Origin: Sarcina sp. DSM 11001
Lineage (GTDB): Bacteria; Bacillota; Clostridia; Lachnospirales; Lachnospiraceae
Assembly: GCF_900101015.1 (NCBI RefSeq)
Contig: NZ_FNFZ01000011.1
Span: 62,001-126,000, forward strand
Length of the DNA stretch: 64,000 nt
Direction of reading: 5' to 3'
This document shows positions 531-61,630 of this stretch, in pieces. The notes beneath the pieces are model-generated. The model made no database searches. It had not been told where the DNA came from and saw only the letters and a list, made by a program, of their open reading frames with translations. The position numbers and the translations under genes are program-made. Numbering within the stretch: the first letter of the stretch is position 1; each line of letters opens with the position of its first letter.

Positions 531-607
531 AGAGCAGTCGATGACGGCTGCAGGGAGTAACAAAAAAACAGAGCAGTCGATGACGGCTGCAGGGAGTAAC
601 AAAAAAC
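531..607 (+). repeat. 39-bp tandem duplication carrying a ribosome binding site
   Basis: Two near-perfect copies (531-569 and 570-607) start with AGAGCAGTCGATGACGGCTG and end in an A-rich run. Each contains AGGGAG. The AGGGAG of the second copy lies about 11 bases before the ATG of the next gene and is probably its Shine-Dalgarno site, so the whole leader including the SD has been duplicated. Confidence 0.9.
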
Positions 608-1405
608 ATGCGATTTGAAAGTATTGCCAGCGGAAGCAGCGGCAATTGTATCTATGTGGGTTCGGACAGGACCCATCTGCTGATGGATGTGGGCATCAGC
701 AGGAAGAGGACCGGGCAGGCTCTTCATGACATCGGACTGGATTTCAAGGACATCGACGGCATCTTTCTGACCCATGAACACTCGGACCATATCATGGGGC
801 TGCCGGTGATCGCCAAATATTCGCAGATGCCGATCTACGCGACGAAGGGGACGATCAGAGCCCTGGCCAGGATGCCGAAATACCGGGATATCGATCCGGA
901 CCGGTTTATCTGTATCCGCGCCGATGAGCCGGTCAGTGTGGGAGATCTCAAGATCGACCCCATGACGATTTCCCACGACGCGGCGGAGCCAGTGGGCTAC
1001 CGGGTTTATGAAGGCAGCAAGAAAGCCTGCATCTGCACAGACCTGGGCTGCTATACAGACTATACCCAGGCCTGCCTGCAGGACTCGGACGTCCTTCTTC
1101 TGGAATCCAACCACGATATCAACATGCTGCAGGTCGGGCATTATCCTTATTCCCTCAAACAGCGCATCCTGGGTAACCGCGGCCACCTGTCAAACGCCGC
1201 GAGCGGGCAGCTGCTCAGCCGGGTGCTCAACAGCCATCTGAAGGGGATTTTCCTGGGACATCTGAGCAAAGAAAACAACATCCCGGAGCTTGCTTTTGAG
1301 ACTGTCCGCGTAGAGCTCATGTTCTCGGAAGCAGGGTACCGCGCCGAGGAGCTCCCCATCCGGGTGGCGGAACGCGATGTCCCGTCGGGTCTCGTGGAGT
1401 TGTAA
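608..1405 (+). CDS. WalJ/YycJ-like metallo-beta-lactamase fold hydrolase
   Basis: This 265-residue protein has the metallo-beta-lactamase fold. The metal-binding HxHxDH motif is THEHSDH at residues 55-61, and further ligands probably lie around SHDAAE and in DLGCYTD. The stretch SNHDINMLQVGHYPYSLK followed by GHLSNAASG is typical of the YycJ/WalJ (VicX) group, linked in Bacillota to DNA repair and cell-wall regulation. No walRK genes are nearby; here it sits between polA and coaE, which fits a nucleic-acid role. The start ATG follows the AGGGAG in the duplicated leader. The precise substrate is unknown. Confidence 0.85.
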   Translation: MRFESIASGSSGNCIYVGSDRTHLLMDVGISRKRTGQALHDIGLDFKDIDGIFLTHEHSDHIMGLPVIAKYSQMPIYATKGTIRALARMPKYRDIDPDRFICIRADEPVSVGDLKIDPMTISHDAAEPVGYRVYEGSKKACICTDLGCYTDYTQACLQDSDVLLLESNHDINMLQVGHYPYSLKQRILGNRGHLSNAASGQLLSRVLNSHLKGIFLGHLSKENNIPELAFETVRVELMFSEAGYRAEELPIRVAERDVPSGLVEL

Positions 1406-1445
1406 AAGCACTGACTGATTACAACGCAGCTGCATTCTGCGTACA

Positions 1446-1582
1446 GGATTATATTAGCGTAAGGGACTAAATCAGCATGCGGGATTAAATCAGCGTGCGG
1501 GATTAAGTCAGCATGCGGGATTAAATCAGCGTGCGGGATTAAATCAGCATGCGGGATTAATTGCGCAGGGATTATATTAGCG
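1446..1582 (+). repeat. 18-bp tandem array with flanking direct repeats
   Basis: Five 18-bp units occupy 1463-1552, of the form GGGATTAAATCAGCATGC. CAT and CGT alternate at one position (CAT, CGT, CAT, CGT, CAT), giving a 36-bp higher-order period. The array is bracketed by the 14-bp direct repeat GGATTATATTAGCG at 1446-1459 and 1569-1582; the right copy runs into the ribosome binding region of coaE. It fills almost the whole spacer. Confidence 0.92.
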
Positions 1583-1595
1583 AAAGGATTTTATT

Positions 1596-2225: not shown

Positions 2226-2253
2226 AATGCAAACAGCAAAGCGCCGAAATTAA

Positions 2254-2273: not shown

Positions 2274-2340
2274 ATTGGTAAAGTACTGTAACAGACGTGC
2301 GCATTGATCAGAACCATCAGGAAGAAGGAGACCAGCTATT

Positions 2341-2616: not shown

Positions 2617-2742
2617 CCGGACAGGCCGGGAATCTGACCGGGTACGAACAGAATCTGACCAGGTACGAACAGAATCTGACCAGGTACGAACAGAATCTGA
2701 TCAGGTACGAACAGAATCTGTCCGGTTACGCACAAAATCTGA
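2611..2742 (+). repeat. 21-bp array that repeats the ACT gene's last codon and stop
   Basis: The hexamer ATCTGA, which at 2611-2616 is the final Ile codon and stop of the ACT gene, recurs at an exact 21-bp spacing at 2632, 2653, 2674, 2695, 2716 (as ATCTGT) and 2737. Between copies the sequence is mostly CCAGGTACGAACAGA. The period is a multiple of three, so stops recur in the frame of the upstream gene. The array separates two genes that are usually tightly linked. Confidence 0.95.
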
Positions 2743-2846
2743 CCGGACAGAGGCGGGGAAGGCCCCTTGATGCACTGGTGCGCCGTCTCATTGACAGGGC
2801 GGCAGACCGGGAGTTTCAGAGGGATTCAATTTGGAGGAATAAAAGA

Positions 2847-5287: not shown

Positions 5288-5381
5288 ACAATTAAGATTA
5301 AGAATGCAAAAAACAGATAAAGAATACACGGAAAAAAGATAAACAATACATAGAAAATCTCCCTGGCCGTCTCTGTCAGGG

Positions 5382-5420: not shown

Positions 5421-5430
5421 TATTCCGGGG

Positions 5431-9115: not shown

Positions 9116-9378
9116 CAGCCAATATACTGTCCAATTAACATTATATCTTGTTAAAAAACAGATAACAGTTTAAAATTGTTTTTTTTATGTGCAGATTCTC
9201 ATGCAATTTTTTGATTGATAGATAAATTGATGGATAACAGGTTATGTCCTTTTAAAAACAGGTCCTTTATGGTAATTTTAATGTCCTTCTTGATATTTTA
9301 ATTTTAGAAGAAAAGCAGTCTCCCGAAAACAGGGCAAAAAGGGCCAAAAAAAAGAATTATATTTTTTTAAAAAAAAGC

Positions 9379-9836: not shown

Positions 9837-10505
9837 ATGAAGGGAAAAAAATCCGGCGCAGGAAACCGCTATGCCGCGGAGGCGGAAGCGCTGGCGGCGC
9901 CGATCGCGGAACCGCTCGGAATTTATATTTACGATGTCGAATATGTCAGGGACGGACAGGAATATTTCCTTAATGTTTATATTGATAAGGAAGGCGGCGT
10001 GACGATAGGGGACTGTGAGACCGTCAGCCGGGCCCTGTCAGATGCCCTGGACAGTGCCGACCTTATTTCTGATCCCTATACCCTGATCGTTTCCAGCCCC
10101 GGGCTGGGAAGGACACTGACAAAGGACCGGCACCTGCAGCACAGCATCGGACAGGATGTGGAGATCCATCTTTACAAACCGGATCCGGAGACCGGGGTGA
10201 AGGATATCACCGGTGAACTGGTGTCCTTTGATCCTGAACAGATCATCATCCTGGCAGAGCCGCCTGCTCCTCCCAGAGGAAAAGCGGGTGGAAAGAAAAA
10301 GGCAAAAAAGAAGAAGGCGGACGGAGAGAGTTCTGAAAACCGTCTTTCAGATGAAGGGACGTCTTACGATAAAGAGACGTCGGTTGAAAGTACGGCCCCC
10401 GGGGAAGAGGGAGAAAAATCTCGTCAGGACGGGGAAGACAAAAGACTGAGACTTGCACTGGAGCGCTCATCGATCGCATCCATAAGACTCGCTTTTTATT
10501 TTTGA
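9837..10505 (+). CDS. rimP: Ribosome maturation factor RimP with a charged insertion
   Basis: RimP binds the small ribosomal subunit during assembly. The N-terminal domain is normal, with GIYIYDVEYVRDG and the family motif VSSPGLGR at residues 85-92. The protein is 222 residues against about 155 for the family, because a Lys/Glu/Ser-rich stretch (about residues 141-203, including KKKAKKKK) interrupts the C-terminal SH3-like domain; the final strand resumes as SIRLAFYF. I start at ATG 9837, after GGAAAGGA; an in-frame ATG at 9777 adds atypical residues. It heads the conserved rimP-nusA-rnpM-ylxQ-infB-rbfA operon. Confidence 0.92.
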   Translation: MKGKKSGAGNRYAAEAEALAAPIAEPLGIYIYDVEYVRDGQEYFLNVYIDKEGGVTIGDCETVSRALSDALDSADLISDPYTLIVSSPGLGRTLTKDRHLQHSIGQDVEIHLYKPDPETGVKDITGELVSFDPEQIIILAEPPAPPRGKAGGKKKAKKKKADGESSENRLSDEGTSYDKETSVESTAPGEEGEKSRQDGEDKRLRLALERSSIASIRLAFYF

Positions 10506-10534: not shown

Positions 10535-11971
10535 ATGAATACTGAGTTGAAAGAGGCGATCCTCGCCCTCGAAAAAGAGAAGAAAATCAGCAGCGAGACT
10601 CTGTTTTCCGCAATTGAGAATGCTTTGATCACCGCCTGCAAAAGCCATTTCGGCAAGGCAGAGAACATCAAGGTAAATATTGACCGGGATTCCTTTACCT
10701 ACTCCTGCTGCGCGGAAAAAACCGTCGTGGAAACTCCCGAGGAAGTTGAGGACAGTCTGGAACAGATCTCTCTTGAGGATGCCGCGAAGATTCAGAAGAC
10801 AGCACAGGTCGGAGATATCGTCAGCGTGGAGATCAACAGTAGAGATTTCGGTCGGATCGCCACCCAGATCGCGAAAAATGTGATCCTGCAGAAGATCAGA
10901 GAGGAAGAGCGCAGCGCTATCTTTGATGAATACAGCCAGAAGCAGAGGACCATCGTCACCGGCATCGTACAGCGCAATATCGGCCGCAATATCAGCGTGA
11001 ATCTGGGAAGCGCGGACGGCATCCTGAACGAGAAGGAACAGGTTCCCGGCGAACACCTGCACCCTACAGACAGGGTCAAGGTCTTCATCCTCGAGGTCCG
11101 GACTACCAACCGGGGACCCAGGATCCTGGTCAGCCGCACACATCCCGATCTTGTGAGAAGGCTCTTTGAACAGGAAGTGGCGGAAGTCAAGGACGGAGTC
11201 ATTGAGATCATGAGCATTGCCCGTGAGCCCGGCAGCCGCACCAAGATCGCGGTCCGGTCCAATGATCCCAATGTCGATCCGATCGGCGCCTGTGTAGGCA
11301 GCAACGGAAACAGAGTCAACAATATCGTTGACGAGCTGCGCGGCGAGAAGATCGATATCGTTGTCTGGGATGAAAACCCCGGCAATTTCATCCAGAACGC
11401 GCTTTCACCCGCCAATGTCGTGGCAGTTTTCGCGGATCCGGAGGAAAAAGTGGCCAAGGTGGTCGTCCCGGATTTCCAGCTCTCTCTTGCTATCGGCAAG
11501 GAGGGACAGAACGCGAGACTTGCCGCCCGTCTGACCGGATACAAGATCGATATCAAGAGCGAGACGCAGGCCAAGGATGCCTATGGATTCCGCTACGAGG
11601 ATTATCTCGACGAGGATGAAGAAGAGGACGAAGAGGAATACAGCGGCGAGTACGCCGGTGAAGAATCCGGCGATGAGAACGCTGAAGGCGAGTTTACCGG
11701 TGAAAAGTCCGGCGATGAGAACGCTGAAGGCGAGTTTACCGGTGAAGAGTCCGGCGATGAGAACGCTGAAGGCGAGTTTACCGGTGAAGAATCCGGCGAT
11801 GAGAACGCTGAAGGCGAGTTTACCGGTGAAGAGTCCGGTGATGAGAACGCTGAAGGCGGGTACGCCGGTGAAGCACCCGTCAGTGACAACTCTGAGGATG
11901 AGTACGCCGACGGCGGTTCTGACCAGGTGATCAGTGAAGAGAAAGCTGACAATGATCCTGCCGGTGTGTAA
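10535..11971 (+). CDS. nusA: Transcription factor NusA with an acidic repeat tail
   Basis: NusA binds RNA polymerase and nascent RNA and governs pausing, termination and antitermination. The 478-residue protein has the N-terminal polymerase-binding domain, an S1 domain (around QKQRTIVTGIVQRNIG) and two KH domains, with GACVGSNGNRVNNI in KH1 and LAIGKEGQNARLAARL in KH2. Firmicutes NusA usually stops soon after KH2. Here about 100 extra residues follow, an Asp/Glu-rich tail built from five near-identical 14-residue units. Start ATG 10535 sits five bases after AAGGAG; an upstream in-frame ATG overlaps the end of rimP and is unlikely. Confidence 0.96.
   Translation: MNTELKEAILALEKEKKISSETLFSAIENALITACKSHFGKAENIKVNIDRDSFTYSCCAEKTVVETPEEVEDSLEQISLEDAAKIQKTAQVGDIVSVEINSRDFGRIATQIAKNVILQKIREEERSAIFDEYSQKQRTIVTGIVQRNIGRNISVNLGSADGILNEKEQVPGEHLHPTDRVKVFILEVRTTNRGPRILVSRTHPDLVRRLFEQEVAEVKDGVIEIMSIAREPGSRTKIAVRSNDPNVDPIGACVGSNGNRVNNIVDELRGEKIDIVVWDENPGNFIQNALSPANVVAVFADPEEKVAKVVVPDFQLSLAIGKEGQNARLAARLTGYKIDIKSETQAKDAYGFRYEDYLDEDEEEDEEEYSGEYAGEESGDENAEGEFTGEKSGDENAEGEFTGEESGDENAEGEFTGEESGDENAEGEFTGEESGDENAEGGYAGEAPVSDNSEDEYADGGSDQVISEEKADNDPAGV
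11648..11857 (+). repeat. 42-bp in-frame tandem repeat (x5) in nusA
   Basis: Five copies begin at 11648, 11690, 11732, 11774 and 11816 and encode units of the form EFTGEESGDENAEG. A decayed sixth copy begins GYAGEAP. Copies are almost identical at DNA level, including synonymous positions, which points to recent expansion. Confidence 0.97.
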
Positions 11972-12002
11972 AGAGCTGGCCCTTGAGTGAACAGGAACGA
12001 GT

Positions 12003-12110
12003 GATCAAAAACGAATGATCATGAAACGAATGATCATGAAACAAATGATCATGAAACAAATGATCAGGAAATGATTGATCACGAAACGAATGATCACGAA
12101 ACGAGCGATC
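12003..12110 (+). repeat. 15-bp GATC-containing tandem array
   Basis: Eight units of the form GATCATGAAACGAAT fill the nusA-rnpM spacer. GATC occurs at 12003, 12017, 12032, 12047, 12062, 12077, 12092 and 12107, a period of 15 after the first step of 14. Most copies are within the palindrome TGATCA. Confidence 0.95.
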
Positions 12111-12781: not shown

Positions 12782-15700
12782 ACTGGCAGAAAAGTACGGC
12801 ATCAGCCAGGGGGAAATCCTCAGGTTTTTGAGAAACAAAGGGGTCGCTGCAGAATCAGCGGATATGAAGATTGAGGAGGGCGCAGTCAAGTTGGTTTCTG
12901 ACAAGTTTGAAGCGAGACACGGTGAAGAGGAAGAAAAGGTAAACAATACGCCTGCGGCGGGCAGTGACGGAAAAAAGGCTGCAGAAAACAAAGCTGCAGA
13001 TAACAAGGCTGCAGATAACGGGAAAAAGCCTGTCAAAAAGAAAAAGATCATTATTGTGACCGGCGGAACTGCCCAGAGCGGCCAGCGGGGCGCTTATTCG
13101 AGCGGTTCCGGCGCGTATAATCCCGGCGGTACAGGACGCGCGGGCGCATCCAGGGGCGGAAACCGCAGCGGCGGCGGAAATGCCGGCGCTTCGGGGAACG
13201 CGAATGCCTCCAGAGGACGCCAGCAGCGCTCCGGAGGTCAGGGCTCTGCAGATAACAGGGGCACAGGAAACCGCGACGGCGCAGGCCGCGGCGGACGCCA
13301 GGGCTCCGGAAACAGCGGATCCTTTGGCCGCGGCAAAAGCCAGGCTCAGCCCGTGCGCAAGCTTGTAAAGCCCACATTCCGCCAGACTCAGATGGAAGTG
13401 GATTTCCATAAGCCGGTCCAGCCGTCCAAAAAAGCAGCGGAAGCTAAAAAAGCAGCTGAGGCTGAGGCTCTCAGGGCAGCGGAAGCTGCTGCAAGGGCAG
13501 CCGAGGAGGCAGCAAAGGCAGAGGCCGAGAAGGCAAGAGAGGCAGCGGAAGCTGCCGCTCAGGCAGAAGCGGCTGCTGCACAGCAGCAGGCGGAACAGGC
13601 TCAGCAGTCCTCCGAGACCAAAGAAGCCAGGAATGCCGGCACAGGCAGGACCGAAGGTGCCCCCAGACAGCAGCGCGGCGGCGACCGTTCCGGACGCCAG
13701 GCCTCAGATTCCAGAGGCGGACGCGGCGAAGGCTCCAGAGGCGGCCAGCGTCAGGGAACTGACGGGCGCACAGGCCGTTCCGGCGGCGAAGGCCGGGGTG
13801 ACCGCGGCCAGCAGCGCCAGGGTGCCGACTCCAGAGGCGGACGCGGCGGAGCTCCCCGTCAGGGCACGGATTCCCGCGGCGGTTCCCGCCAGGGCGCGGA
13901 CGCCAAGGGCGGCCGTGGAGGATCTGCTCATGGCGGAGCACGTCCCGGGCAGGGCACAGGCGCTTCCAGGTCAGACAAGGGACGCGGCAAGAATTATCAG
14001 GAGAAAGACCGCAGATCCAGAAAGGATCAGATCTATAACGAGGACGAGAAGAGCCGCAGAAACAAGAGCGGACGCTTTATCCGTCCTGAGAAGAAGGATG
14101 AGACTCCCGCGGAAGAGCAGATCAAGACTATCTTTGTTCCCGAGAAGATCTCCATCCGTGAACTGGCTGAGAGAATGCATCTGCAGGCTGCCGAGATCAT
14201 CAAGAAGCTCTTCCTGCAGGGCAAGGCCATGACACCCAACAGCGAAGTCAGTTATGATGAGGCTGAGGAGATCGCGCTTGGCTACGATATCCTGTGCGAG
14301 AAAGAGCAGAAGGTCGACGTGATCGAAGAGCTGCTCCGCGAAGAGGAAGAGGACGAGGCCGAGATGGTTTCCCGTCCGCCCGTCGTCTGTGTCATGGGCC
14401 ATGTCGACCACGGCAAGACCTCCCTTCTGGATGCCATCCGCAGCACAAGCGTCACCAGCAAGGAGGCCGGCGGCATCACGCAGGCCATCGGCGCTTACAT
14501 GGTCTCCGTCAACGGAAGGGATATCACCTTCCTTGATACACCCGGTCATGAGGCTTTCACAGCCATGCGTATGCGCGGCGCCAATTCCACCGATATCGCC
14601 ATTCTGGTCGTCGCGGCCGATGACGGTGTCATGCCGCAGACGATTGAAGCTATCAACCACGCGAAAGCAGCCGGTGTCGAGATCGTGGTCGCTGTCAACA
14701 AGATCGATAAGGACGGCGCAAATCCCGAGCGTGTCAAGCAGCAGCTCACTGAATATGAGCTGATCCCCACGGAATGGGGCGGCTCCACGGAGTTCGTCGA
14801 AGTCTCCGCAAAGACCGGAGACGGGATCGAAGACCTGCTGGAGACGATCCTTCTGACTGCGGATATCATGGAGCTCAAGGCAAATCCCGACAGAAAGGCA
14901 AGAGGCCTTGTTCTGGAAGCCATGCTCGACAAGGGCCGTGGCCCTGTGGCCAATGTCCTGGTCCAGAAGGGCACGCTGCATATCGGCGACTTTATTTCCG
15001 CGGGCGCAAGCTCCGGCAAGGTCAGGGCCATGATCGATGACAAGGGCAGAAGGGTCAAAGAGGCCACTCCTTCCCATCCTGTCGAGATCCTCGGTCTGTC
15101 CGACGTCCCCAGCGCGGGAGAAGTATTCCTTGCCCACAATGATCTGCAGACAGCCAAATCCTATGCCGAGACCTACAAGGTCCAGCGTAAGGAGGAGCTC
15201 ATCGAAGAGACAAGGATGCGCATGAACCTGGACGACCTGTTCACACAGATGAAGGAAGGGACGCTCAAGGAATTCAACCTCATCCTCAAGGCGGATGTGC
15301 AGGGCTCCGTCGAAGCACTGCGTCAGAGCCTGCTCAAGCTCTCCAACGAGGAGGTCGTCGTCAAGGTCATCCACGCGGCGGTCGGCAATATCACAGAGTC
15401 CGATGTTTCCCTCGCTTCCGCTTCCAATGCCGTGATCATCGGCTTCAATGTCCGCCCGGACATGCTGGCCAAGTCCATGGCAGACCAGGAAGGGGTCGAC
15501 ATCCGCCTCTACAAGGTCATCTACCAGGCGATCGATGCTATCGAAGCAGCCCTCAAGGGCATGCTCGCCCCCGTCTACGAGGAGCGTGTCATCGGCCATG
15601 CCGAAGTCCGCATGCTCTTCAAGGCATCCCATGTCGGCAATATCGCCGGCTGCATGGTCCTCGACGGTGTCATCCGCCGCGGCTGCAAAGTCCGTATCCG

Positions 15701-15877: not shown

Positions 15878-15905
15878 CCTTTTGGATCAAACCTTTTGGA
15901 TCAAA
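15878..15905 (+). repeat. 14-bp tandem duplication after infB
   Basis: CCTTTTGGATCAAA occurs at 15878-15891 and again at 15892-15905, beginning three bases after the infB stop codon. Confidence 0.85.
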
Positions 15906-15947: not shown

Positions 15948-15950
15948 TAA

Positions 15951-16014
15951 GCATGTTGATAAATAAGCATGTTGATAAATAAGCATGTTGATAAATAATC
16001 ATGTTGATAAAGCT
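15951..16014 (+). repeat. 16-bp tandem array (x4)
   Basis: GCATGTTGATAAATAA is repeated at 15951, 15967, 15983 and, with changes, 15999. Each unit brings in-frame or near-frame stop codons. The array begins right after the hairpin. Confidence 0.92.
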
Positions 16015-16032
16015 GTAAAGCTGATCAGCCCC

Positions 16033-16077
16033 GGATAAATGATTTTTTGCGGACAAATGATTTTTTGCGGGCAAGTG
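16033..16077 (+). repeat. 18-bp tandem repeat (x2.5)
   Basis: GGATAAATGATTTTTTGC at 16033-16050 and GGACAAATGATTTTTTGC at 16051-16068 are followed by a partial copy. It is a third unrelated repeat type in the single infB-rbfA spacer. Confidence 0.85.
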
Positions 16078-16115
16078 ATGGATAGATTTACAGATTAGAG
16101 GTCATAATCGCATTT

Positions 16116-18624: not shown

Positions 18625-18673
18625 GATAATAAGGATAATGATAAAGGGAAGCATAATTCCTTATATGATTCCC

Positions 18674-18748
18674 TGAACAATACAATTCCCTGAACAATAC
18701 AATTTCCTGAACAGTGCAATTCATTGAACAGGACATTTCATAAACAGG
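18674..18748 (+). repeat. 17-bp tandem array upstream of ribF
   Basis: TGAACAATACAATTCCC-type units start at 18674, 18691, 18708 and 18725, with a weaker one at 18741. The array fills the truB-ribF spacer and ends near the ribF start. Confidence 0.9.
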
Positions 18749-22716: not shown

Positions 22717-24309
22717 ATGGCTTCAATAAAAGAGGAAGTAGCGCGGCGGCGCACCTTTGCCATCATTTCGCACCCTGATGCCGGCAAGACGACCCTGACG
22801 GAGAAATTCCTTCTCTATGGAGGGGCCATCAATCTCGCGGGAAGCGTAAAGGGCAAGGCGACCGCCCGCCATGCAGTCTCCGACTGGATGGAGATTGAAA
22901 AACAGAGGGGAATCTCGGTCACGAGCAGCGTCCTGCAGTTTGAGTACGGCGGATGCTGTGTCAATCTGCTGGATACACCCGGCCACCAGGACTTTTCCGA
23001 GGATACCTACCGCACACTGATGGCTGCGGACTCCGCTGTCATGGTCATCGATGCGTCCAAGGGCGTAGAGGCCCAGACCAGGAAGCTGTTCCAGGTCTGT
23101 ACCATGCGCCACATCCCGATCTTTACCTTCATCAACAAGATGGACAGGGATGCCCTGGATACCTTTGACCTGCTCGATGATATTGAAAAAAATCTCGGGA
23201 TCGACACCTGTCCGATGAACTGGCCGATCGGGTCCGGAAAAGCCTTCCGCGGTGTTTATGAGCGGGAGACCGGCGAGGTCATTCTCTACTCCGATACGGA
23301 GAAGGGGACGAAGGAAGGTAAGCAGGAGCGCATCCCCCTGTCGGATGAGGACAGGATCCTGAACGCTATAGGAGAAGACGCTTTCGAGACTCTCTCGGGA
23401 GAAGTGGAGCTCCTGGACGGGGCAAGTGCGGCCTTTGATCTGGAGGCAGTCCGGGCGGGAATGCTGACACCTGTCTTTTTCGGATCCGCCCTCAATAATT
23501 TCGGCGTTGAGATCTTCCTGCAGAACTTCCTTACCATGGCTCTGCCTCCTTCAGCCAGAAGCTCTGACCAGGGGATGATCGATCCCGTGGAAGAGGGCTT
23601 CTCCGCCTTTGTGTTCAAGATCCAGGCCAATATGAACAAGGCCCACAGGGACAGGATTGCCTTTATGAGGATCTGTTCCGGCCGGTACGAGATCGGCATG
23701 GAGGTCAGACACGTGCAGTCCGGCAGGGTGCAGCGCCTTTCACAGCCCCAGCAGCTCATGGCCAGCGATCGCAAGATCCTCGATGAGGCCTATGCCGGGG
23801 ATATCATCGGCGTCTTTGATCCGGGCCTGTATTCCATCGGAGATACCTTCTGCATGCCCAAACGCAGTTTCCGTTACGAGGGGATTCCCACCTTTGCGCC
23901 GGAGCACTTTGCCCGCGTCCGCCAGGTCGACACCATGAAGCGCGACCAGTTTGTCAAGGGCATCACCCAGATCGCCCAGGAGGGCGCGATCCAGATCTTC
24001 CAGGAGTACAACACAGGTATGGAGGAGATCATCTGCGGTGTCGTCGGCATGCTGCAGTTCGACGTCCTCAAATTCCGCTTAAAGAGCGAGTACAATGTTG
24101 AAATACTACTGGATACACTTCCCTATGAGCACATCCGCTGGATCGTGAACAAGGATATTGATGTCATGAAGATCACGGGCACGACAGATATGAAGAGGAT
24201 CAGAGACCTGAAGGGCAACCCTCTGCTGCTGTTCATCAACCCCTGGTCTGTCGGAATGGTCCTGGACCGCAACGAAGGGCTGCAGCTGGAGAATTTCTCC
24301 CGCAACTGA
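22717..24309 (+). CDS. prfC: Peptide chain release factor 3
   Basis: RF3 is a GTPase that recycles RF1/RF2 after peptide release. The 530-residue protein has the G motifs ISHPDAGKTTLTEK (G1), DTPGHQDFSEDTYR (G3) and INKMDRD (G4), and the RF3-specific region with KGITQIAQEGAIQIFQE and GVVGMLQFDVLKFRLKSEY. The start MASIKEEVARRRTF at 22717 is preceded by AAAAAGGA; an in-frame start at 22633 would read through the pnp terminator and is rejected. It appears to be a single-gene unit. Confidence 0.96.
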   Translation: MASIKEEVARRRTFAIISHPDAGKTTLTEKFLLYGGAINLAGSVKGKATARHAVSDWMEIEKQRGISVTSSVLQFEYGGCCVNLLDTPGHQDFSEDTYRTLMAADSAVMVIDASKGVEAQTRKLFQVCTMRHIPIFTFINKMDRDALDTFDLLDDIEKNLGIDTCPMNWPIGSGKAFRGVYERETGEVILYSDTEKGTKEGKQERIPLSDEDRILNAIGEDAFETLSGEVELLDGASAAFDLEAVRAGMLTPVFFGSALNNFGVEIFLQNFLTMALPPSARSSDQGMIDPVEEGFSAFVFKIQANMNKAHRDRIAFMRICSGRYEIGMEVRHVQSGRVQRLSQPQQLMASDRKILDEAYAGDIIGVFDPGLYSIGDTFCMPKRSFRYEGIPTFAPEHFARVRQVDTMKRDQFVKGITQIAQEGAIQIFQEYNTGMEEIICGVVGMLQFDVLKFRLKSEYNVEILLDTLPYEHIRWIVNKDIDVMKITGTTDMKRIRDLKGNPLLLFINPWSVGMVLDRNEGLQLENFSRN

Positions 24310-25002: not shown

Positions 25003-25488
25003 ATGAAGCAGAGAGCATTTAAGGAACAGGTATTCAAGCTCCTTTTCAGAGCGGATTTTAATACAAAGGAAGAACTGCTGGAGCAGGTCCCGATCTATTT
25101 TGAGAGCGGGGATCTGACTGTCGTGCCTGAGGACCGCGCCAGGATCGAAGAGAGACTGCGCGCCATCCTGGACAGGCTCCCTGAGATCGACCAGCAGATC
25201 GCCGGCAGGCTCAAAAACTGGAGACCGGAGAGGATCGGCAAGGTGGAGCGCACTGTGCTCCGCATGACAGTTTATGAACTTCAGACAGACACCGGGACTC
25301 CGACTGCCGTCGTGATCAATGACGCCATCGAGCTGGCCAGAAAGTTCGGCCAGGACGGCGCCGGCCAGTTTGTCAACGGAGTGCTGGCTGCCTTTGTTCC
25401 CTCGAATAATAAACCCGGCACTGCTAAAGCTGATACTGAAAAACCTGAAACTGAAAAATCTGAAACTGAAAAACCCGAAAAATCCTGA
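25003..25488 (+). CDS. nusB: Transcription antitermination factor NusB with a repeat tail
   Basis: NusB binds boxA RNA with S10 during rRNA antitermination. The 161-residue sequence has the all-helical fold with AFKEQVFKLLFRADF at the start and the diagnostic VLRMTVYEL plus VVINDAIELARKFGQDGAGQ. After FVNGVLAAF the family normally ends; here a short tail of 5-residue units (PETEK/SETEK) follows, encoded by 15-bp repeats that run up to the stop codon. folD, often next to nusB in Bacillus, is absent; xseA follows 10 bases later. Confidence 0.95.
   Translation: MKQRAFKEQVFKLLFRADFNTKEELLEQVPIYFESGDLTVVPEDRARIEERLRAILDRLPEIDQQIAGRLKNWRPERIGKVERTVLRMTVYELQTDTGTPTAVVINDAIELARKFGQDGAGQFVNGVLAAFVPSNNKPGTAKADTEKPETEKSETEKPEKS
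25432..25485 (+). repeat. 15-bp in-frame repeats at the nusB 3' end
   Basis: Units GAAACTGAAAAATCT and close variants start at 25432, 25447 and 25462, with a partial copy at 25477. They encode the PETEK-like tail and stop directly at the TGA. Confidence 0.9.
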
Positions 25489-25498: not shown

Positions 25499-26833
25499 AT
25501 GCGCAATGTGTATTCGGTCTCCAGGATCAATGCCTACATCCGCCGCATGTTTTCAGAGGATTACCTGCTCAGGAATGTGCTGGTCCGCGGGGAAGTGAGC
25601 AACTGTAAATACCATGCTTCGGGTCATATATATTTTACGCTGAAGGACGCCTCCGGGACGTTGTCCTGCGTCATGTTCGCAGGCCGTCGAAGGGGGCTTT
25701 CTTTTCCCATGCAGAACGGGGACCAGGTGATCGCCGAGGGGACGGTCGATGTTTATGAGCGCGCGGGGAGTTATCAGCTCTACGTGGTCAGGATCGTCCG
25801 TGACGGGGTCGGAGAGCTGGCGGAGAGATTCGAGCTTCTCAAAAAGAAACTGCTGGAGCAGGGGATGTTCGATGAGTCCTATAAACAGCCCGTTCCCCGC
25901 TATATCCGTACTCTGGGAGTAGTGACAGCTTCCACAGGGGCAGCTGTGCGGGATATCATCCAGATTTCCAAAAGACGCAACCCTTATATCAGGATCATCC
26001 TCTATCCAGCCATTGTACAGGGAGACGCGGCGCCGGACAGTATTGTCCGGGGCATCCGGACGCTGGACAGGCTCGGGGTCGATGTGATCATCATCGGGCG
26101 CGGGGGAGGATCCCTGGAGGACCTGTGGGCCTTCAATGAGGAGCGGGTGGCTGAAGCTGTCTTTGAATGTATGACACCCATCATCTCCGCCGTCGGCCAT
26201 GAGACGGATACGGTGATCACAGATTTTGTCGCCGACCTCCGCGCGCCTACGCCGTCAGCCGCAGCGGAGCTCGCTGTCTTTGACTACCGGCGCTTTCAGG
26301 ATGATCTCGATGCTTACCGGAAAAGTCTGGACGATGCCTTTGCCCAGACAGTACTCGCTCGCAGGAACAGCCTGCGGCAGGCAGAGCGGTCCCTGCGCCA
26401 CCTCTCTCCGGACGCGAGGATCCGGGATCAGCGGATGAGGACGGACCGGGCTTTTGAACAGATCGACCGCCTGATGCAGGACCGGATCGACAGCCTCCGC
26501 AGGGAGGCGATGCAGAAGGACCGGCTCGACCTCCTGATCAACGGAGCTCTGCAGGCGGCGAAAAGGCAGGTACCGGACCGGACAGATCTGGACCGCCTGA
26601 TGGAGATCCGCCTGTCGGACAAAAGGCATTCTCTGGAGCTGCTGGCAGGATCCCTGGCCCATCTCTCTCCGCTGGCGAGACTCTCCGGCGGCTACGGCTT
26701 TGTGTCGGAACCGGGAGGAAAGGCAGTCCGCAGCGCCGGCCAGCTCAGACCCGGAGACAGGTTCTGCGTCCGCTTTCGCGACGGCAGTGTCGACGGCAGT
26801 GTCGACGCTGTTCATCCGTTAACCATTCTTTAA
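25499..26833 (+). CDS. xseA: Exodeoxyribonuclease VII large subunit
   Basis: The catalytic and DNA-binding subunit of ExoVII, which degrades single-stranded DNA. The 444-residue protein starts with an OB-fold (GEVSNCKYHASGHIYFTLKD). The catalytic core follows with TASTGAAVRDIIQISKRRNP, IIIGRGGGSLEDLWAFNEE and SAVGHETDTVITDFVADLRA. A long coiled-coil helix and a C-terminal segment complete it. I start at ATG 25499, just after the nusB stop with GAGG eight bases upstream; longer in-frame starts overlap nusB. xseB follows. Confidence 0.96.
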   Translation: MRNVYSVSRINAYIRRMFSEDYLLRNVLVRGEVSNCKYHASGHIYFTLKDASGTLSCVMFAGRRRGLSFPMQNGDQVIAEGTVDVYERAGSYQLYVVRIVRDGVGELAERFELLKKKLLEQGMFDESYKQPVPRYIRTLGVVTASTGAAVRDIIQISKRRNPYIRIILYPAIVQGDAAPDSIVRGIRTLDRLGVDVIIIGRGGGSLEDLWAFNEERVAEAVFECMTPIISAVGHETDTVITDFVADLRAPTPSAAAELAVFDYRRFQDDLDAYRKSLDDAFAQTVLARRNSLRQAERSLRHLSPDARIRDQRMRTDRAFEQIDRLMQDRIDSLRREAMQKDRLDLLINGALQAAKRQVPDRTDLDRLMEIRLSDKRHSLELLAGSLAHLSPLARLSGGYGFVSEPGGKAVRSAGQLRPGDRFCVRFRDGSVDGSVDAVHPLTIL

Positions 26834-30606: not shown

Positions 30607-30614
30607 AAACACCG

Positions 30615-30655
30615 GGATAAAAATAACGGAATAAAAATAACGGAATAAAACAAAA
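30615..30655 (+). repeat. 14-bp tandem repeat before recN
   Basis: GGATAAAAATAAC at 30615, GGAATAAAAATAAC at 30628 and GGAATAAAACAAAAA at 30642 form a short array starting nine bases after the argR stop. Confidence 0.85.
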
Positions 30656-32437: not shown

Positions 32438-32566
32438 AGGGACTTTAAGTGGTACTTTAAAGTGGTATTTTAAAGTGGTATTTTAAAGCGGTATTTTAAA
32501 GCGGTACTTTAAAGCGGTACTTTATATCAGTTTTTTAAATCAGTACTTTAAATCAGTATTTTAATC
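32438..32566 (+). repeat. 13-bp TTTAAA-containing tandem array
   Basis: GGTATTTTAAAGC-type units begin at 32451, 32464, 32477, 32490, 32503 and 32516, an exact 13-bp period. Three or four decayed copies then continue (TCAGTACTTTAAA type) to about 32566. A longer imperfect repeat with TTTTTTGAGGACT follows at about 32570-32620. This fills the 285-base gap between recN and the DUF1836 gene. Confidence 0.93.
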
Positions 32567-36626: not shown

Positions 36627-36690
36627 TTGAGAAAGAGTACTTTTGAGAAGGAGTACTTTGAGAAGAAGTACCATTGAGAAGGAGTATCAG
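36627..36690 (+). repeat. 15-16-bp array of Shine-Dalgarno-like units
   Basis: Units of the form TTGAGAAGGAGTACT start at 36627, 36643, 36658 and 36674. Each contains GAGAA(A/G)GAGTA-type purine sequence, and the last AAGGAG lies about 12 bases before the chosen start of the M16C gene. Confidence 0.88.
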
Positions 36691-41934: not shown

Positions 41935-43323
41935 ATGGAAAAGACTATGGACAAGATCGTTGCGCTGTGCAACAACAGAGGATTCATCTATCCCGGGTCC
42001 CAGATCTACGGGGGCCTTGCCAATACGTGGGATTACGGCAACCTGGGCGTTGAGCTCAAGAACAATGTCAAGAAGGCCTGGTGGCAGAAATTTGTCACTG
42101 AAACACCCGAGAACGTGGGTGTGGACTGCGCCATCCTGATGAATCCCCGGACATGGATCGCCAGCGGACATCTGGCCAGTTTTTCCGATCCTCTCATGGA
42201 CTGCAAGGCCTGCGGTTCACGTTTCCGCGCGGACAAGCTGATCGAGGATTACGCCCAGGAGAAGGGGATGACCCTTGACGGCAGTGTCGACGGTTGGACC
42301 AGCGATGAGATGATGGGCTTTATCAACAAGTTCAGCGTGCCCTGTCCGGAGTGCGGCAAGTTCCACTGGACAGATATCCGTCAGTTTAATCTGATGTTCA
42401 AGACCTTCCAGGGCGTGACTGAGGATTCAAGCGCCACAGTTTATCTGCGTCCCGAGACGGCACAGGGCATTTTCGTCAATTTCAAGAATGTCCAGCGCAC
42501 CTCCCGCAAGAAGATCCCCTTCGGGATCTGCCAGGTCGGCAAGTCCTTCCGCAATGAGATCACACCCGGCAACTTCACCTTCCGCACACGCGAGTTCGAG
42601 CAGATGGAGCTGGAGTTTTTCTGCGAGCCCGACACCGACCTCGAGTGGTTCAAATACTGGAAGGATTTCTGCTGGAACTGGCTGATGACCCTGGGCCTTA
42701 AGCCCGAGGAGACCCGCCTTCGCGACCACGATCAGGAAGAGCTTTCCTTCTATTCCAAAGCAACCACGGACATCGAGTTCCTGTTCCCCTTCGGCTGGGG
42801 TGAGCTGTGGGGCATCGCGGACAGGACCGATTATGACCTGACCCAGCACCAGAACACCTCCGGAGAGGATCTGACTTATTTTGACGATGTCAAAAAGACC
42901 CGTTATGTCCCCTACGTCATCGAGCCTTCGCTGGGCGCGGACCGCGTCACGCTGGCCTTCCTGTGCGCGGCTTATGACGAAGAGGAGCTTGAGGGCGGCG
43001 ACAAGCGCACTGTCATGCGTTTCCATCCGGCCCTGGCGCCTGTCAAGATCGGCGTCCTGCCTCTGTCCAAAAAGCTCACCGGCGAGGCGTTCGAGATCTA
43101 CAAAAAGCTCTCCAGGCACTACAACTGCGAGTTCGACGACCGCGGCAATATCGGCAAGCGCTATCGCAGACAGGATGAGATCGGCACACCCTTCTGCCTG
43201 ACCTACGACTTTGAGTCGGCAGAGGACAAGGCTGTCACCATCCGCATGCGCGACAGCATGGAGCAGGTGCGTGTCCCGATCGACCAGCTGGATGCCTGGT
43301 TCCTGGATAAGTTCGATTTCTGA
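41935..43323 (+). CDS. glyQS: Glycyl-tRNA synthetase, single-chain class II type
   Basis: This enzyme charges tRNA-Gly. The 462-residue protein is the homodimeric type: [20 protein letters not shown] at the start, motif 2-like region [20 protein letters not shown], and the C-terminal anticodon-binding domain from [12 protein letters not shown] to [10 protein letters not shown]. Two CxxC pairs (CKACGSRF and CPECGKF) suggest a zinc-binding insertion. ATG 41935 follows AAGGAG. The gene has its own promoter, and its 3' end with the stop codon is exactly duplicated. Confidence 0.96.
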
Positions 43324-43356
43324 TCTTGAAGGAGACTTTCTGATCTTGAAGGAGAA
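43317..43356 (+). repeat. 20-bp duplication of the glyQS 3' end
   Basis: TTTCTGATCTTGAAGGAGA at 43317-43335, spanning the glyQS stop TGA, is repeated exactly at 43337-43355. The unit includes GAAGGAGA, so the copy also creates a second SD-like sequence before alaS. Confidence 0.92.
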
Positions 43357-46585: not shown

Positions 46586-46590
46586 AGGGA

Positions 46591-46690
46591 AAAAGCCGGA
46601 ATCTTAAAAAGCCGGAATCTTAAAAAGCCGGAATCTTAAGAGGAACCGGAATCTTAAGAGGAGCCGGACTTTCAGGAAGGCCGGATTTTT
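46591..46690 (+). repeat. 16-18-bp tandem array before scpB
   Basis: Units of the form AAAAGCCGGAATCTTA have CCGGA at 46596, 46612, 46628, 46646, 46664 and 46681: exact 16-bp steps first, then 17-18. It occupies most of the 300-base rpsU-scpB gap. The unit shares CCGG with the adjacent rpsU terminator. Confidence 0.9.
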
Positions 46691-50067: not shown

Positions 50068-50472
50068 ATGAAGAGCTATACCATTACCGTGAATGGAACC
50101 GCATATGAAGTGACTGTGGAAGAGACGACCGGAACCGGAGCAGCTGCTGTTCCCGCTATGCCGCGTCCTGCAGCCCAGACTGCTCCCATGCCCGTGGCTC
50201 CCGCTGCAGCTCCTGCAGCAGCTCCCGCTCCCGCAGCGGCACCTGCCGGAAATGCCGGCGCTACCAGGATCGAAGCCGGAGCGGCAGGCAAAGTGTTCAA
50301 GATCGAAGTGACAGCCGGACAGGCAGTCAAGAAGGGCGACACCGTCGTGATCCTTGAAGCAATGAAGATGGAGATCCCCATGGTCTCTCCTGTGGACGGC
50401 AAGGTTGCTACCATCAACTGCGCTGTCGGTGATCCGGTTGAGGCAGGAACCCTCCTGGCGACGATTGACTGA
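50068..50472 (+). CDS. Biotin carrier subunit (biotin/lipoyl attachment protein)
   Basis: A 134-residue biotin carrier of the 1.3S/MmdD type. A short N-terminal strand segment (MKSYTITVNGTAYEVTV) is followed by a flexible Ala/Pro linker (about residues 24-64) and a biotinyl domain. The Lys to be biotinylated is residue 100 in EAMKME. It would shuttle carboxyl groups between the carboxyltransferase subunits and the beta pump. AGGAGG lies before the ATG. No biotin carboxylase is encoded in the cluster, fitting a decarboxylase or transcarboxylase. Confidence 0.95.
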   Translation: MKSYTITVNGTAYEVTVEETTGTGAAAVPAMPRPAAQTAPMPVAPAAAPAAAPAPAAAPAGNAGATRIEAGAAGKVFKIEVTAGQAVKKGDTVVILEAMKMEIPMVSPVDGKVATINCAVGDPVEAGTLLATID

Positions 50473-53245: not shown

Positions 53246-53274
53246 TTGACCGGTCGTTCGATAATCTCTAATAT
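53246..53274 (+). promoter_or_regulatory. Candidate promoter of a structured RNA
   Basis: TTGACC (53246-53251) and TAATAT (53269-53274) are exactly 17 bases apart, just after the OadA-like gene. Transcription would begin near 53281, shortly before a multibranched inverted-repeat region. Confidence 0.5.
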
Positions 53275-53280
53275 CATAAC

Positions 53281-53512
53281 TTCTAAGTTCATAATATCTA
53301 ATATCCATGAGCCGGAGAGAAACAGCCGCGGCGCCCGTCCTTTTGAGGACGGGCGCTGCGGCCTGCGAGACCCCGTTACAGATCGCTTTACGTCTGGGGG
53401 GCCGCCGTTCCACTTGGGTTTTTGCGCTGAAACCACGCAAAAACGTCTGTTATCTCGAGTTTCGAAACAGTCTTAAGTGTAACGAAATATATTCTCCGGC
53501 TCATATTTTTCT
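53281..53512 (+). ncRNA. Candidate structured noncoding RNA
   Basis: The segment can fold into a closed multibranch shape. P1 joins ATGAGCCGGAGA (53307-53318) to TCTCCGGCTCAT (53493-53504). P2 is a hairpin GCGCCCGTCC (53331-53340) with GGACGGGCGC (53347-53356), extended by GCCGC/GCGGC. P3 joins CGTTACA (53374-53380) to TGTAACG (53478-53484). Inside P3 is a hairpin GTTTTTGCG with CGCAAAAAC, plus the palindrome GTTTCGAAAC. The right arm of P1 runs into ATTTTTCT. A promoter-like pair lies upstream. No open frame looks coding. 6S RNA is one known RNA with a similar overall plan, but I cannot assign a family. Confidence 0.45.
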
Positions 53513-55785: not shown

Positions 55786-55790
55786 CATTC

Positions 55791-58291: not shown

Positions 58292-58308
58292 AGCCTTGGG
58301 AGGTGAAC

Positions 58309-58914: not shown

Positions 58915-58949
58915 CAAGGTCATCTGACAACAGAAGCGGAGGCAATCCT

Positions 58950-59711
58950 ATGCTGACAAAAAGAATCATTCCCTGCCTGGACGTAAACCGCGGCAGAGTC
59001 GTAAAGGGCGTTAATTTCGTTTCCCTGAGGGACGCGGGCGACCCGGTCGAAGCAGGCGAAGCCTATTCCAGAGCCGGCGCCGATGAACTGGTCTTTCTGG
59101 ACATAACGGCTACGAGTGATGCCCGCGCCACCGTCGCGGACATGGTGCGCAGAGTGGCGGAGAGGGTCTTCATTCCTTTTACTGTCGGGGGAGGGATCCG
59201 GACGACCGGGGACATGCGGGCCATCCTGAGAGAAGGCGCGGACAAGATCTCGATCAATTCCGCAGCGATCAACCGTCCGGAACTCATCGCCGAAGGAGCC
59301 GAGAGATTCGGCAGCCAGTGCATCGTAGTTGCCATCGATGCCCGCCGCAGACCTTCCGGGGAAGGCTGGACCATCTACAGGAGCGGCGGACGGATCGACA
59401 CAGGGATCGATGCCGTAGAATGGGCAGTGCAGGCCGAAAAGCTGGGTGCCGGCGAGATCCTTCTCACCAGCATGGATGGAGACGGGACAAAGAACGGATA
59501 TGACCTGGAACTCACCCGGGCGATCTCGGATGCTGTCCGCATACCCGTCATAGCTTCGGGCGGAGCAGGAACTCTGGAACATTTCTATGATGCCCTGACG
59601 GCTGGCGGAGCTGACGCGGCGCTGGCGGCTTCCCTCTTCCACTTCAAGGAACTGGAGATCCGTGAGGTCAAGGAATACCTGCACGCAAGAGGGATCCCGG
59701 TCAGGCTGTGA
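58950..59711 (+). CDS. hisF: Imidazole glycerol phosphate synthase subunit HisF
   Basis: The cyclase subunit that uses HisH-derived ammonia to make imidazole glycerol phosphate and AICAR. The 253-residue TIM barrel has [19 protein letters not shown] with catalytic Asp 11, a second Asp in IVVAIDARR, the phosphate loops [10 protein letters not shown] and [11 protein letters not shown], and [17 protein letters not shown] start at ATG 58950 with GGAGG seven bases before; an in-frame GTG overlapping hisH lacks an SD. It forms a pair with hisH. Confidence 0.96.
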
Positions 59712-59782
59712 TCTTAGACCCGGGTCTTACGGAGCCAGCCGGGGAACCAGGTGCTGCCCGTTTAGAAAGGATTTTTATTATT

Positions 59783-61630
59783 ATGTCCGGTTTTATGGAT
59801 TTTTGGAGAAACAGAAGCAGACTTTTTTTCAAAAATGGTGAGACAGAATCCGATGGAGAGACAAAAATGAAAGCAGAGGGCATGAAAACAGAAGAGTTCA
59901 AGACAGAAGACATTATAGCGGAAAAAGCAGCGGCAGAAGAAGCAGCAGAAGAAACAGCAATAGAAAAACCAGCGGCAGAAGAAACAGCGGCAAAAGAAAC
60001 AGCGGCAGAAGAAGCAGCGGCAGAAGAAACAGCGGCAAAAGAAACAGCGGCAAAAGAAACAGCAATAGAAAAAGCAGCGACAGAAGTAAAAACCGCAGAA
60101 AACAGCAGCGCGCAGCAGGCAGGAGCGGAAAAGGAACCGGAGAATGCAGCCTCCGCATCCGGACAGGATCAGATCCCGGATCCGGAAGAGGTCTTTAAAC
60201 ATTTTTATGCCATCTCCGCGATCCCGCACGGTTCATTTTTCACAAAGGAACTGAGTGATTATCTGGAAAACTTCGCGTCGGAGAACGGGCTGGCCTGCAT
60301 GAGGGACGAGGCCGGAAATCTGATCATTTCCAGGCCGGGTTCCAAGGGATATGAGAATGCCGAGCCGCTGGCCCTCCAGGGTCATATCGATATGGTCCTT
60401 GAAAAAGAAGCTTCCAATTCCATTAACATGGAAAAAGAACCCATTACCCTGATCAAGGACGGGGACTGGCTGCGGGCTGACCGGACAACGCTGGGCGGCG
60501 ATGACGGGATCGCTGTCGCCATGATGATGGCCCTTCTGACGGATAAAACCATTGAGTGCCCTCCCCTCGAATGCATTTTTACTGTTGATGAAGAGGTGGG
60601 ACTCAGGGGCGCCTATGCTCTGGACCTCAGCGGGCTCAAAAGCCGCAGGATGATCAACCTGGATTCGGAAGAGGAAGGTGTCATCACCTCTGCCTGTGCG
60701 GGAGGGGTCCAGATGATCTGCACTCTGCCCGGCATCAGACGGGAGAAAAAGGGAAAACCCATGGAGATCACGATCAGCGGCCTGCTCGGCGGTCATTCAG
60801 GAGAGATGATCGGCAAAGGAAGAGCTAACGCGGACCGTCTCCTGGCCCGTCTTCTTTACAGGCTTGACAAAGAGGCAAAATATTACCTGATCAGCTTCAA
60901 CGGCGGAAAAAAGGACAACGCGATCCCCAGGGAGGCGAAGGCAGAGATCCTTTTTGCCGGAAATTATTCCAAAAAAAATATTCGTGAGACTGTCAGGAAT
61001 TTTGCAAATGATATCGCGAAGGAATACAGTGTGACAGATCCTGATATCGAGATCACGACGCGGTGGATGGATAAGGACGGAGAAAAAGAAGATAAATATA
61101 TTGTTTTCAGACGCAAGGACACCAGGCGTATGGTGCGGTTCCTCATGGCCCTGCCCAATGGAGTGATCCGGTTTTCTCCCCTCTTCAAGGATATCCCCCG
61201 GACCTCCCTCAATCTCGGGATCGTCAAGACCATGGCGGACGGTATGTATACGGACTCCCTGCTCCGGAGCAGTCTGGACTCCCAGAAACAGATGCTGGTG
61301 AACCGTATCCTGTGCATCGCGGAGGAGTTCGGCATCGACGCAAAAACAGATGGCTCCTATCCCGCCTGGGAACTGGTCGAGAAATCCCAATTCAGAGAGA
61401 TGGCGGCAGAGGTCTACCGCCGTGTGACCGGAAAGGAAGCAAAGGTCCAGGTGACCCATGGAGGCCTTGAGTGCGGCATTCTGGCGGCAAAGGTCCCCGG
61501 ACTCGAATGTATTTCGATCGGGCCTGACATGGAAGAGATCCACACTCCTGCCGAACGGCTGAGCATTCCCTCCTGTCAGAGAACCTGGGAATATGTCAAA
61601 GAGCTCGTTGCCGCCTGCGCGAAGGCCTGA
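59783..61630 (+). CDS. pepD: M20-family aminoacyl-histidine dipeptidase (PepD-like) with repeat N-terminus
   Basis: A 615-residue zinc dipeptidase. The M20 core starts near residue 135 and has LALQGHIDMVLEK (metal His 201, Asp 203), GGDDGIAVAMMMAL, TVDEEVGLRGAYALD with the catalytic Glu, NLDSEEEGVI and GLLGGHSGEMIGKGRAN. Family members are about 480-490 residues; here about 130 extra N-terminal residues are mostly 5-residue units such as AAEET and AAKET, likely a long helix. ATG 59783 is preceded by AGAAAGGA. If translation began later, the repeats would be untranslated, but no SD-supported start was found before the core. Confidence 0.9.
   Translation: MSGFMDFWRNRSRLFFKNGETESDGETKMKAEGMKTEEFKTEDIIAEKAAAEEAAEETAIEKPAAEETAAKETAAEEAAAEETAAKETAAKETAIEKAATEVKTAENSSAQQAGAEKEPENAASASGQDQIPDPEEVFKHFYAISAIPHGSFFTKELSDYLENFASENGLACMRDEAGNLIISRPGSKGYENAEPLALQGHIDMVLEKEASNSINMEKEPITLIKDGDWLRADRTTLGGDDGIAVAMMMALLTDKTIECPPLECIFTVDEEVGLRGAYALDLSGLKSRRMINLDSEEEGVITSACAGGVQMICTLPGIRREKKGKPMEITISGLLGGHSGEMIGKGRANADRLLARLLYRLDKEAKYYLISFNGGKKDNAIPREAKAEILFAGNYSKKNIRETVRNFANDIAKEYSVTDPDIEITTRWMDKDGEKEDKYIVFRRKDTRRMVRFLMALPNGVIRFSPLFKDIPRTSLNLGIVKTMADGMYTDSLLRSSLDSQKQMLVNRILCIAEEFGIDAKTDGSYPAWELVEKSQFREMAAEVYRRVTGKEAKVQVTHGGLECGILAAKVPGLECISIGPDMEEIHTPAERLSIPSCQRTWEYVKELVAACAKA
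59920..60075 (+). repeat. 15-bp in-frame repeats in the pepD N-terminal region
   Basis: Units of the form GCGGCAGAAGAAACA and GCGGCAAAAGAAACA repeat about ten times with small variations, encoding AAEET and AAKET steps. Longer blocks of several units also recur, a sign of nested duplications. Confidence 0.9.

Follow-up and report, generated by a model that had tools for sequence, protein, structure and literature searches.

Short tandem arrays with unrelated units are in excess across a clade that includes Sarcina sp. DSM 11001, consistent with raised birth of small duplications

The window analyzed here, a stretch of 64,000 nucleotides from the genome of Sarcina sp. DSM 11001 (Lachnospiraceae; C30:62001-126000 of a 4.15 Mb assembly in 76 contigs), contains numerous short tandem arrays in spacers and genes. 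This excess is genome-wide and clade-wide, and the window samples that state. In the sequences sampled, one clade carries more arrays than its relatives, arrays in the same orthologous spacer have unrelated units, arrays in genes are filtered for reading frame, and perfect two-copy duplications mostly lack junction microhomology and show a length cut-off. With moderate confidence, we attribute these features to a clade-wide rise in births of short, homology-free tandem duplications, followed by array growth and selection; topoisomerase I (TopA) is proposed more tentatively as their source.

Arrays were called with Tandem Repeats Finder (TRF) at a score of at least 50 and, in the window, calls with a score of at least 50 and a period of at least 9 were merged. 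Spacers and genes were defined by a purpose-built, simple codon-based gene caller, not by annotation. The merged window has 25 arrays, 16 in spacers and nine in coding sequence (table 1). Spacer arrays amount to 2.09 per spacer kb and 14% of spacer bases; none was called after one dinucleotide shuffle of the same spacers. A preliminary description of the window had listed 19 places with arrays. Sixteen correspond to TRF arrays (531, 1463, 2611, 11648, 12003, 15878, 15951, 16033, 18674, 25432, 30615, 32451, 36627, 43317, 46596, and 59920; TRF starts differ from these by up to ∼20 bp), and the other three (30092, 46087, and 47393), inspected by eye, are only weak or spaced direct repeats.

The window is ∼1.6 times denser than a 703-kb sample of its genome that contains it (2.09 vs. 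1.29 per spacer kb). That sample of G000 (the window's genome; G labels denote genus genomes and L labels the sequence loci compared) has 177 spacer arrays and 108 coding arrays. Arrays make up 10.4% of its spacer bases, compared with 2.6% in 12 other genomes of the genus (520 kb) and 0.7% in infB loci of other Lachnospiraceae (1192 kb, a group that excludes the array-rich loci L088, L091, L095, and L102). Arrays with at least four copies number 83 per Mb in G000, 47 of them in spacers, versus 0 in the 12-genome sample and 13 in the infB loci. Two stretches of Escherichia coli K-12 (100 kb) have five arrays, all within annotated genes. The density had been suspected to be unusual, and these samples agree: other members of the genus and most other Lachnospiraceae loci lack it, and a few share it. 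L088, L091 (Butyrivibrio sp. VCB2006), L095, and L102 are array-rich too.

Ten genomes group on one branch with support of 1.0 in a 55-tip tree built from CoaE and a piece of PolA, and these are the clade. All ten were used for pooled densities, birth densities, reading of the tree, and tests of C at position −4. Nine (without G037) were used for junction homology, period excess, gapped repeats, and the first analysis of end motifs; seven for the TopA alignment and repair-gene searches (MutS, MutL, PolA, RecJ, RecD2, SbcD, and Ku); and four for infB-locus densities, four-genome period counts, orthologous spacers, and youngest arrays. Most genomes were sampled over only ∼5–60 kb. Among named genomes, infB is best matched in assemblies of uncultured Lachnospiraceae, such as one from sheep duodenum.

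Across 57 genomes of the genus, the ten of the clade have a pooled 257 spacer arrays in 205.1 kb (1.25/kb), and the 47 others have 39 in 94.8 kb (0.41/kb). The difference persists when the window's genome is removed (1.04/kb vs. 0.41/kb; p = 4.7e-7, treating arrays as independent) and when genomes with at least 15 kb each are compared one by one (8 clade vs. 31 others; p = 0.0008). Coding arrays are likewise denser (0.169/kb vs. 0.039/kb in other genus genomes), and arrays with at least four copies number 80 in 1303 kb of the clade versus 3 in 1065 kb of the rest. Densities vary within the clade, with G009 at 0.43/kb and G055 at 0.64/kb. Off the clade branch, G035 is a dense outlier with seven spacer arrays in 4.47 kb (a further 20 kb added), and ∼1/kb is also reached by G045, G033, G028, G016, and G058, each with one to three arrays; densities of individual genomes are therefore rough when they rest on 20 kb or less. 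The process is concentrated in one clade.

Individual arrays appear to have arisen independently. Only four of the 177 spacer arrays in G000 match another (blastn-short, E ≤ 1e-3), in agreement with the preliminary view that the units are unrelated and do not form a mobile family. The remaining 173 argue against a mobile repeat family or CRISPR-like array, and assembly artefact is countered by the agreement of separately assembled genomes and the divergence of copies; nothing beyond repetition itself speaks for this group of explanations, which is extremely improbable, although no search aimed at CRISPR arrays and no check of reads was made. Long-read error in particular is an unlikely origin, given that several genomes assembled separately share the state and that copies have often diverged. 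The operon rimP-nusA-ylxR-ylxQ-infB-rbfA-nrnA-truB-ribF, retained in most of the loci compared, gives orthologous spacers: from rimP to ribF, 8 of 21 spacers longer than 30 bp have an array in four clade genomes, as against 5 of 163 in other Lachnospiraceae loci, and the infB-rbfA spacer measures 237–304 bp in those four clade genomes, as against 43.5 bp for the median of 64 others. When different species have arrays in the same spacer, none of 11 pairs is similar (blastn-short); between nusA and ylxR, for example, G008 has a 39-bp unit unrelated to the 15-bp unit of the window. Individual arrays are therefore unlikely to have a conserved function. Apart from arrays, a dispersed short intergenic word, GATGAAGAATAA, occurs in 16 of 418 spacers of G000, and GGGACGGTTC/GGGACGGTCC elements are present in six of seven clade genomes and none of four others examined; both are possibly a small mobile or regulatory repeat.

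Where arrays persist is consistent with selection. Periods are divisible by 3 in all nine coding arrays of the window, in 102 of 108 coding arrays but only 65 of 177 spacer arrays of G000, and, across four clade genomes, in 81 of 85 arrays in genes (95%) versus 45 of 124 in spacers, where they are unbiased. The same frame filter is evident in genes of other Lachnospiraceae (188 of 194). In co-directional spacers, arrays counted by fifths toward the downstream start codon number 29, 26, 28, 21, and 8 (n = 112; the fifth nearest the start codon vs. the first, p = 0.0008). Among spacer types in G000, density is lowest in divergent spacers (0.99/kb), intermediate in co-directional spacers (1.58/kb), and highest in convergent spacers (2.12/kb). 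The unrelated units, frame filter, thinning near start codons, and low density in divergent spacers all fit a general duplication process combined with selection, as had been proposed from the window, along with the expectation that coding arrays keep frame while spacer arrays take any period. Within genes, selection would purge copies that break the frame, and it would also remove those close to start codons or promoters, so that most would survive in spacers and in-frame tails.

Evidence on how arrays start comes from perfect two-copy duplications. When a duplication arises between direct repeats that already exist, part of a third copy, as long as the repeat, is left behind. Nine clade genomes (1313 kb) yielded 38 perfect duplications. 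At their junctions, 0, 1, 2, 3, 4, 5, and at least 6 bp of extra homology occur in 16, 10, 5, 1, 1, 2, and 3 cases, respectively, and 21.4, 10.7, 4.0, 1.3, 0.4, 0.1, and 0.1 are expected without microhomology. Thus, 31 have 0–2 bp, near chance. The unit does not exceed 18 bp in 36 of the 38, and the two longer ones carry homologies of 7 and 24 bp. Such duplications occur at 28.9 per Mb in the clade. In the rest of the genus and the infB loci combined, the density is 6.9 per Mb, and the 17 cases there are similarly spread, with homology running somewhat higher (at least 3 bp in 5 of them). Relative to shuffles, clade spacers have an excess of ∼6–9 per 100 kb for each period from 7 to 11, ∼3 per 100 kb for each from 12 to 18 (in part pieces of larger arrays), and little beyond; in the rest of the genus, the excess at periods 8–10 is 0–1 per 100 kb. 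Duplications shorter than 7 bp are hidden by the chance level, and arrays of longer period are present too. Direct repeats separated by a gap are enriched as well and in part resemble decayed duplications. No strong motif marks duplication ends; the main departures are C at −4, T at unit positions +3 and +2, and AT richness of the unit.

When births are restricted to perfect duplications of 8–18 bp with at most 2 bp extra, spacers have 82 in 193.8 kb of the clade (0.42/kb) versus 10 in 92.0 kb of the rest (0.11/kb; p = 3e-6). The difference is evident in spacers of 100–200 bp (0.71 vs. 0.08/kb) and 200–1500 bp (0.39 vs. 0.12/kb). We infer that the birth rate is raised and that arrays are not merely tolerated, and that the increase is probably in homology-independent births.

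Several observations weigh against this interpretation. Seven of the 38 births have at least 3 bp of junction homology where ∼2 are expected, so a slippage class of births exists; the difference in birth density is not significant in spacers of 20–100 bp (three vs. two cases); and the youngest spacer arrays (TRF, at least 95% match) differ just twofold in density, at 0.290/kb in four clade genomes and 0.146/kb in 13 other genomes of the genus, which leaves room for relaxed selection. Under relaxed selection alone, births would be ordinary and larger, less compact genomes would tolerate insertions in spacers. Consistent with this, spacer array density correlates with the noncoding fraction (Spearman 0.41, 39 genomes), and the median spacer is 204 bp in G000 versus 114 bp in 12 other genus genomes. 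Relaxed selection may contribute because clade genomes tend toward more noncoding DNA. As the whole explanation it is rather unlikely, since perfect duplications are denser per spacer kb at matched spacer lengths above 100 bp, coding arrays are up ∼fourfold, and G035 is compact (8% noncoding) yet array-rich.

An origin of the arrays by classical slippage during replication, or by flaps left unprocessed, between short direct repeats already in place is improbable. Slippage could produce the births with longer homology and is probably used in multicopy growth, but the near-chance junctions of most births speak against it. Defects of the polA/FEN1 type are the class that gives unprocessed flaps between short direct repeats; the 5′ nuclease domain of PolA was found in 25 of 25 genomes, with motifs intact by eye in the four clade members aligned, and RecJ was found in all 25. 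Staggered breaks that are filled in and then sealed by Ku-type end joining would leave tandem copies free of homology, as fill-in and blunt joining should do, but Ku had no match in any of the 25 genomes, seven of them from the clade, a result that does not bear on joining without Ku. This route is very improbable.

Failure of mismatch repair, which the preliminary description raised for checking, is not favored. MutS and MutL were found in all 25 genomes, including the seven of the clade, and homopolymers (0.21 vs. 0.15 per kb, clade vs. rest) and dinucleotide repeats (0.14 vs. 0.22 per kb), compared here as plain densities with no statistical test, suggest that microsatellite-type slippage is not comparably raised. 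Loss of MutS, MutL, the PolA 5′ nuclease, RecJ, RecD2, or SbcD was rejected as a cause, as all have matches in the seven clade genomes searched. Among the 25 genomes, RecD2 had no match above the cut-off in one nonclade genome and SbcD had none in two; SbcD matches are split in G000, G009, G010, G052, and G055. MutS of G000 itself has a 12-bp × 5 array in an inserted segment (L185 17432-17492; G000:C26:57432-57492), and open frames of MutL and a type IA topoisomerase III-like protein tend to be longer in the clade than in relatives, with exceptions.

We return to raised births of homology-free duplications. In this model, short tandem duplications would be born throughout clade genomes at a raised rate; most would be no longer than 18 bp, and most would lack flanking homology. 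Two copies would then allow slippage or unequal exchange to bring some arrays to 3–10 copies. Growth apparently also proceeds dimer by dimer: the array at 1446..1560 probably grew as 36-bp dimers because its copies alternate between CATGC and CGTGC. More tentatively, TopA, a type IA topoisomerase I, would be the source. It would cut one strand, the freed 3′ end would gain a few bases, and the extended end would be rejoined to the 5′ end held by TopA, leaving a head-to-tail copy.

Variation in TopA suggests a candidate residue. In E. coli, topA R168C generates de novo tandem duplications of 2–19 bp independently of repeats (PMC6954433). The position equivalent to E. coli T325, six residues after the catalytic Y319, is V in 9, I in 4, L in 1, and T in 47 of 61 genomes of the genus. 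V or I is present in nine of ten clade genomes, in the array-rich G035, and in G038, G002, and G027 (array sampling did not extend to G027). When spacers are pooled, 12 V/I genomes have 1.25 arrays/kb versus 0.37/kb in 44 T genomes, a comparison that mostly reflects one clade. Boundaries of duplications are also suggestive. Cleavage by type IA topoisomerase I prefers C four bases 5′ of the cut (PMC7587558), and in clade spacers 48 of 132 boundaries have C at −4 where 29.9 are expected (one-sided p = 2.6e-4), an excess noticed before we knew of this preference. In co-directional clade spacer births, C at −4 is on the template strand in 15 of 36 cases versus 8 of 36 on the other, counts too few to support a judgment. 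Contigs of the window's genome (G000:C73, C69, and C21) have extra type IA topoisomerase-like genes or fragments.

Several observations run counter to a role for TopA. The residues altered in E. coli mutators, R168 and R35, are intact in 25 of 25 aligned TopA sequences of the genus, and other active-site positions checked are conserved in them as well. Clade member G011 has T at the T325 position, and G038 (V) and G002 (I) have one and zero spacer arrays, respectively, in <2 kb of spacer each. A wider scan by codon pattern covered 50 of 67 Lachnospiraceae genomes with infB loci (17 were dropped by hand before genotypes were seen) and found V/I in two clade controls and in the genome of L066, whose locus has no spacer array. 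It did not find V/I in the array-rich lineages L088, L091, L095, and L102, although the pattern is blind to a changed neighboring residue or an incomplete genome; other causes therefore probably exist. C at −4 is not raised in coding events of the clade (17 of 72, expected 19.2) or in spacers of other genomes (15 of 68, expected 14.1) and is only weakly up when imperfect duplications are taken as a separate set (11 of 38, expected 8.7), and the departure of T at +3 inside the unit is stronger (56 of 132, expected 35.6). The lead is also post hoc, having been found after the data were seen. Given this mixture of evidence from C at −4, T at +3, and lineages, we treat TopA as a good lead, tentatively drawn, and not as a result. 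In its fullest form, a doubtful but possible one, the clade would be a natural, long-lived mutator lineage in which T to V/I substitution close to the active site of TopA leads to cleavage complexes that are extended and rejoined, seeding homology-free duplications up to ∼18 bp across the genome that, in the course of evolution, inflated spacers and protein linkers and even put an array into MutS.

A close known system is E. coli topA R168C, for which Bachar et al. (2019; PMC6954433) describe short head-to-tail duplications, of 2–19 bp in a galK assay. Here, the excess is similarly at periods 7–18 with few above, mostly without junction homology. That strain is a laboratory point mutant, whereas here R168 is intact, a different TopA residue is no more than a candidate, and a natural clade has accumulated arrays that have grown. 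Mismatch-repair mutators, which act mostly on homopolymers and short microsatellites according to the same paper, share the raised insertion and deletion but differ in that mutS and mutL are present here and microsatellites do not seem comparably raised. Many short arrays are also a feature of the satellite-rich prokaryotes Methanosarcina, Methanobrevibacter ruminantium, and Burkholderia (Subirana and Messeguer 2019; PMC6749651), and the 36 long-repeat satellites of M. ruminantium are unrelated and scattered, as here. Satellite-rich in that study denotes >4 per Mb with at least four copies of 10–200 bp, and the bacterial maximum in its Table 1 is 23 per Mb; our 703 kb has 83 per Mb by TRF, a method different from theirs. 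The parts of that paper available to us contain no clade comparison or junction analysis. Judged from titles and the openings of abstracts, we found no publication on such arrays in Lachnospiraceae.

The arrays of the window are listed in table 1. Gene names are from Pfam matches, except that nrnA (a DHH-family match), ylxQ (L7Ae family), and ribF (FAD synthetase/flavokinase) are our own names, with operon order used. The duplication at 15878..15905 looks like a young birth, and the array at 25426..25480 overlaps the start of the open reading frame (ORF) of the exonuclease VII large subunit. Gene order at 1-2225 is polA-MBL-coaE, and G008, G018, and G004 have polA-coaE-MBL.

Table 1. Tandem arrays in the 64-kb window
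Position	Strand	Unit and copies	Location or remark	Basis
525..606		39 bp × 2.1	polA-MBL spacer	TRF, Pfam
1446..1560		18 bp × 5.4	spacer before coaE	TRF, sequence
2630..2744		21 bp × 5.5	spacer	TRF
5310..5357		22 bp × 2.2	spacer	TRF
9262..9302		21 bp × 2.0	spacer; weak, score 52	TRF
10341..10381	+	18 bp × 2.2	coding, rimP	TRF, Pfam
11655..11873	+	42 bp × 5.2 (higher-order 126 bp)	coding, NusA C-terminal tail	TRF, Pfam
11996..12104		15 bp × 7.3	nusA-ylxR spacer	TRF
12970..13019	+	15 bp × 3.4	coding, IF-2 N-terminal part	TRF, Pfam
13500..13545	+	24 bp × 1.9	coding, IF-2 N-terminal part	TRF
15878..15905		14 bp × 2	perfect duplication, no extra junction homology	TRF
15948..16011		16 bp × 4.0	infB-rbfA spacer	TRF
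16032..16079		18 bp × 2.7	infB-rbfA spacer	TRF
18668..18730		17 bp × 3.7	truB-ribF spacer	TRF
23957..24006	+	24 bp × 2.1	coding	TRF
25426..25480	+	15 bp × 3.7	coding, NusB C-terminal tail	TRF, Pfam
26779..26807	+	12 bp × 2.4	coding, end of exonuclease VII large-subunit ORF	TRF, Pfam
30600..30650		14 bp × 3.6	spacer	TRF
32442..32564		13 bp × 9.5	spacer	TRF
36627..36686		∼15–16 bp × 3.9	spacer; unit with AAGGAG, like a ribosome-binding site	TRF
43317..43355		20 bp × 2	duplication before alaS	TRF, Pfam
46590..46657		16 bp × 4.1	spacer	TRF
50197..50228	+	12 bp × 2.7	coding	TRF
53267..53305		15 bp × 2.6	spacer; weak, score 50	TRF
59928..60086	+	15 bp × 10.8	coding, N-terminal part of M20-family peptidase ORF	TRF, Pfam

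How tandem repeats originate in nonrepeating sequence has been described as unknown (PMC6954433). A natural clade dense in perfect, mostly homology-free duplications, relatives with low density, and a named candidate residue make the question of repeat origin testable, and the clade may help show how repeats arise from nonrepetitive DNA. Raised birth of short duplications would also show a nonmobile route for the growth of bacterial spacers and protein tails.

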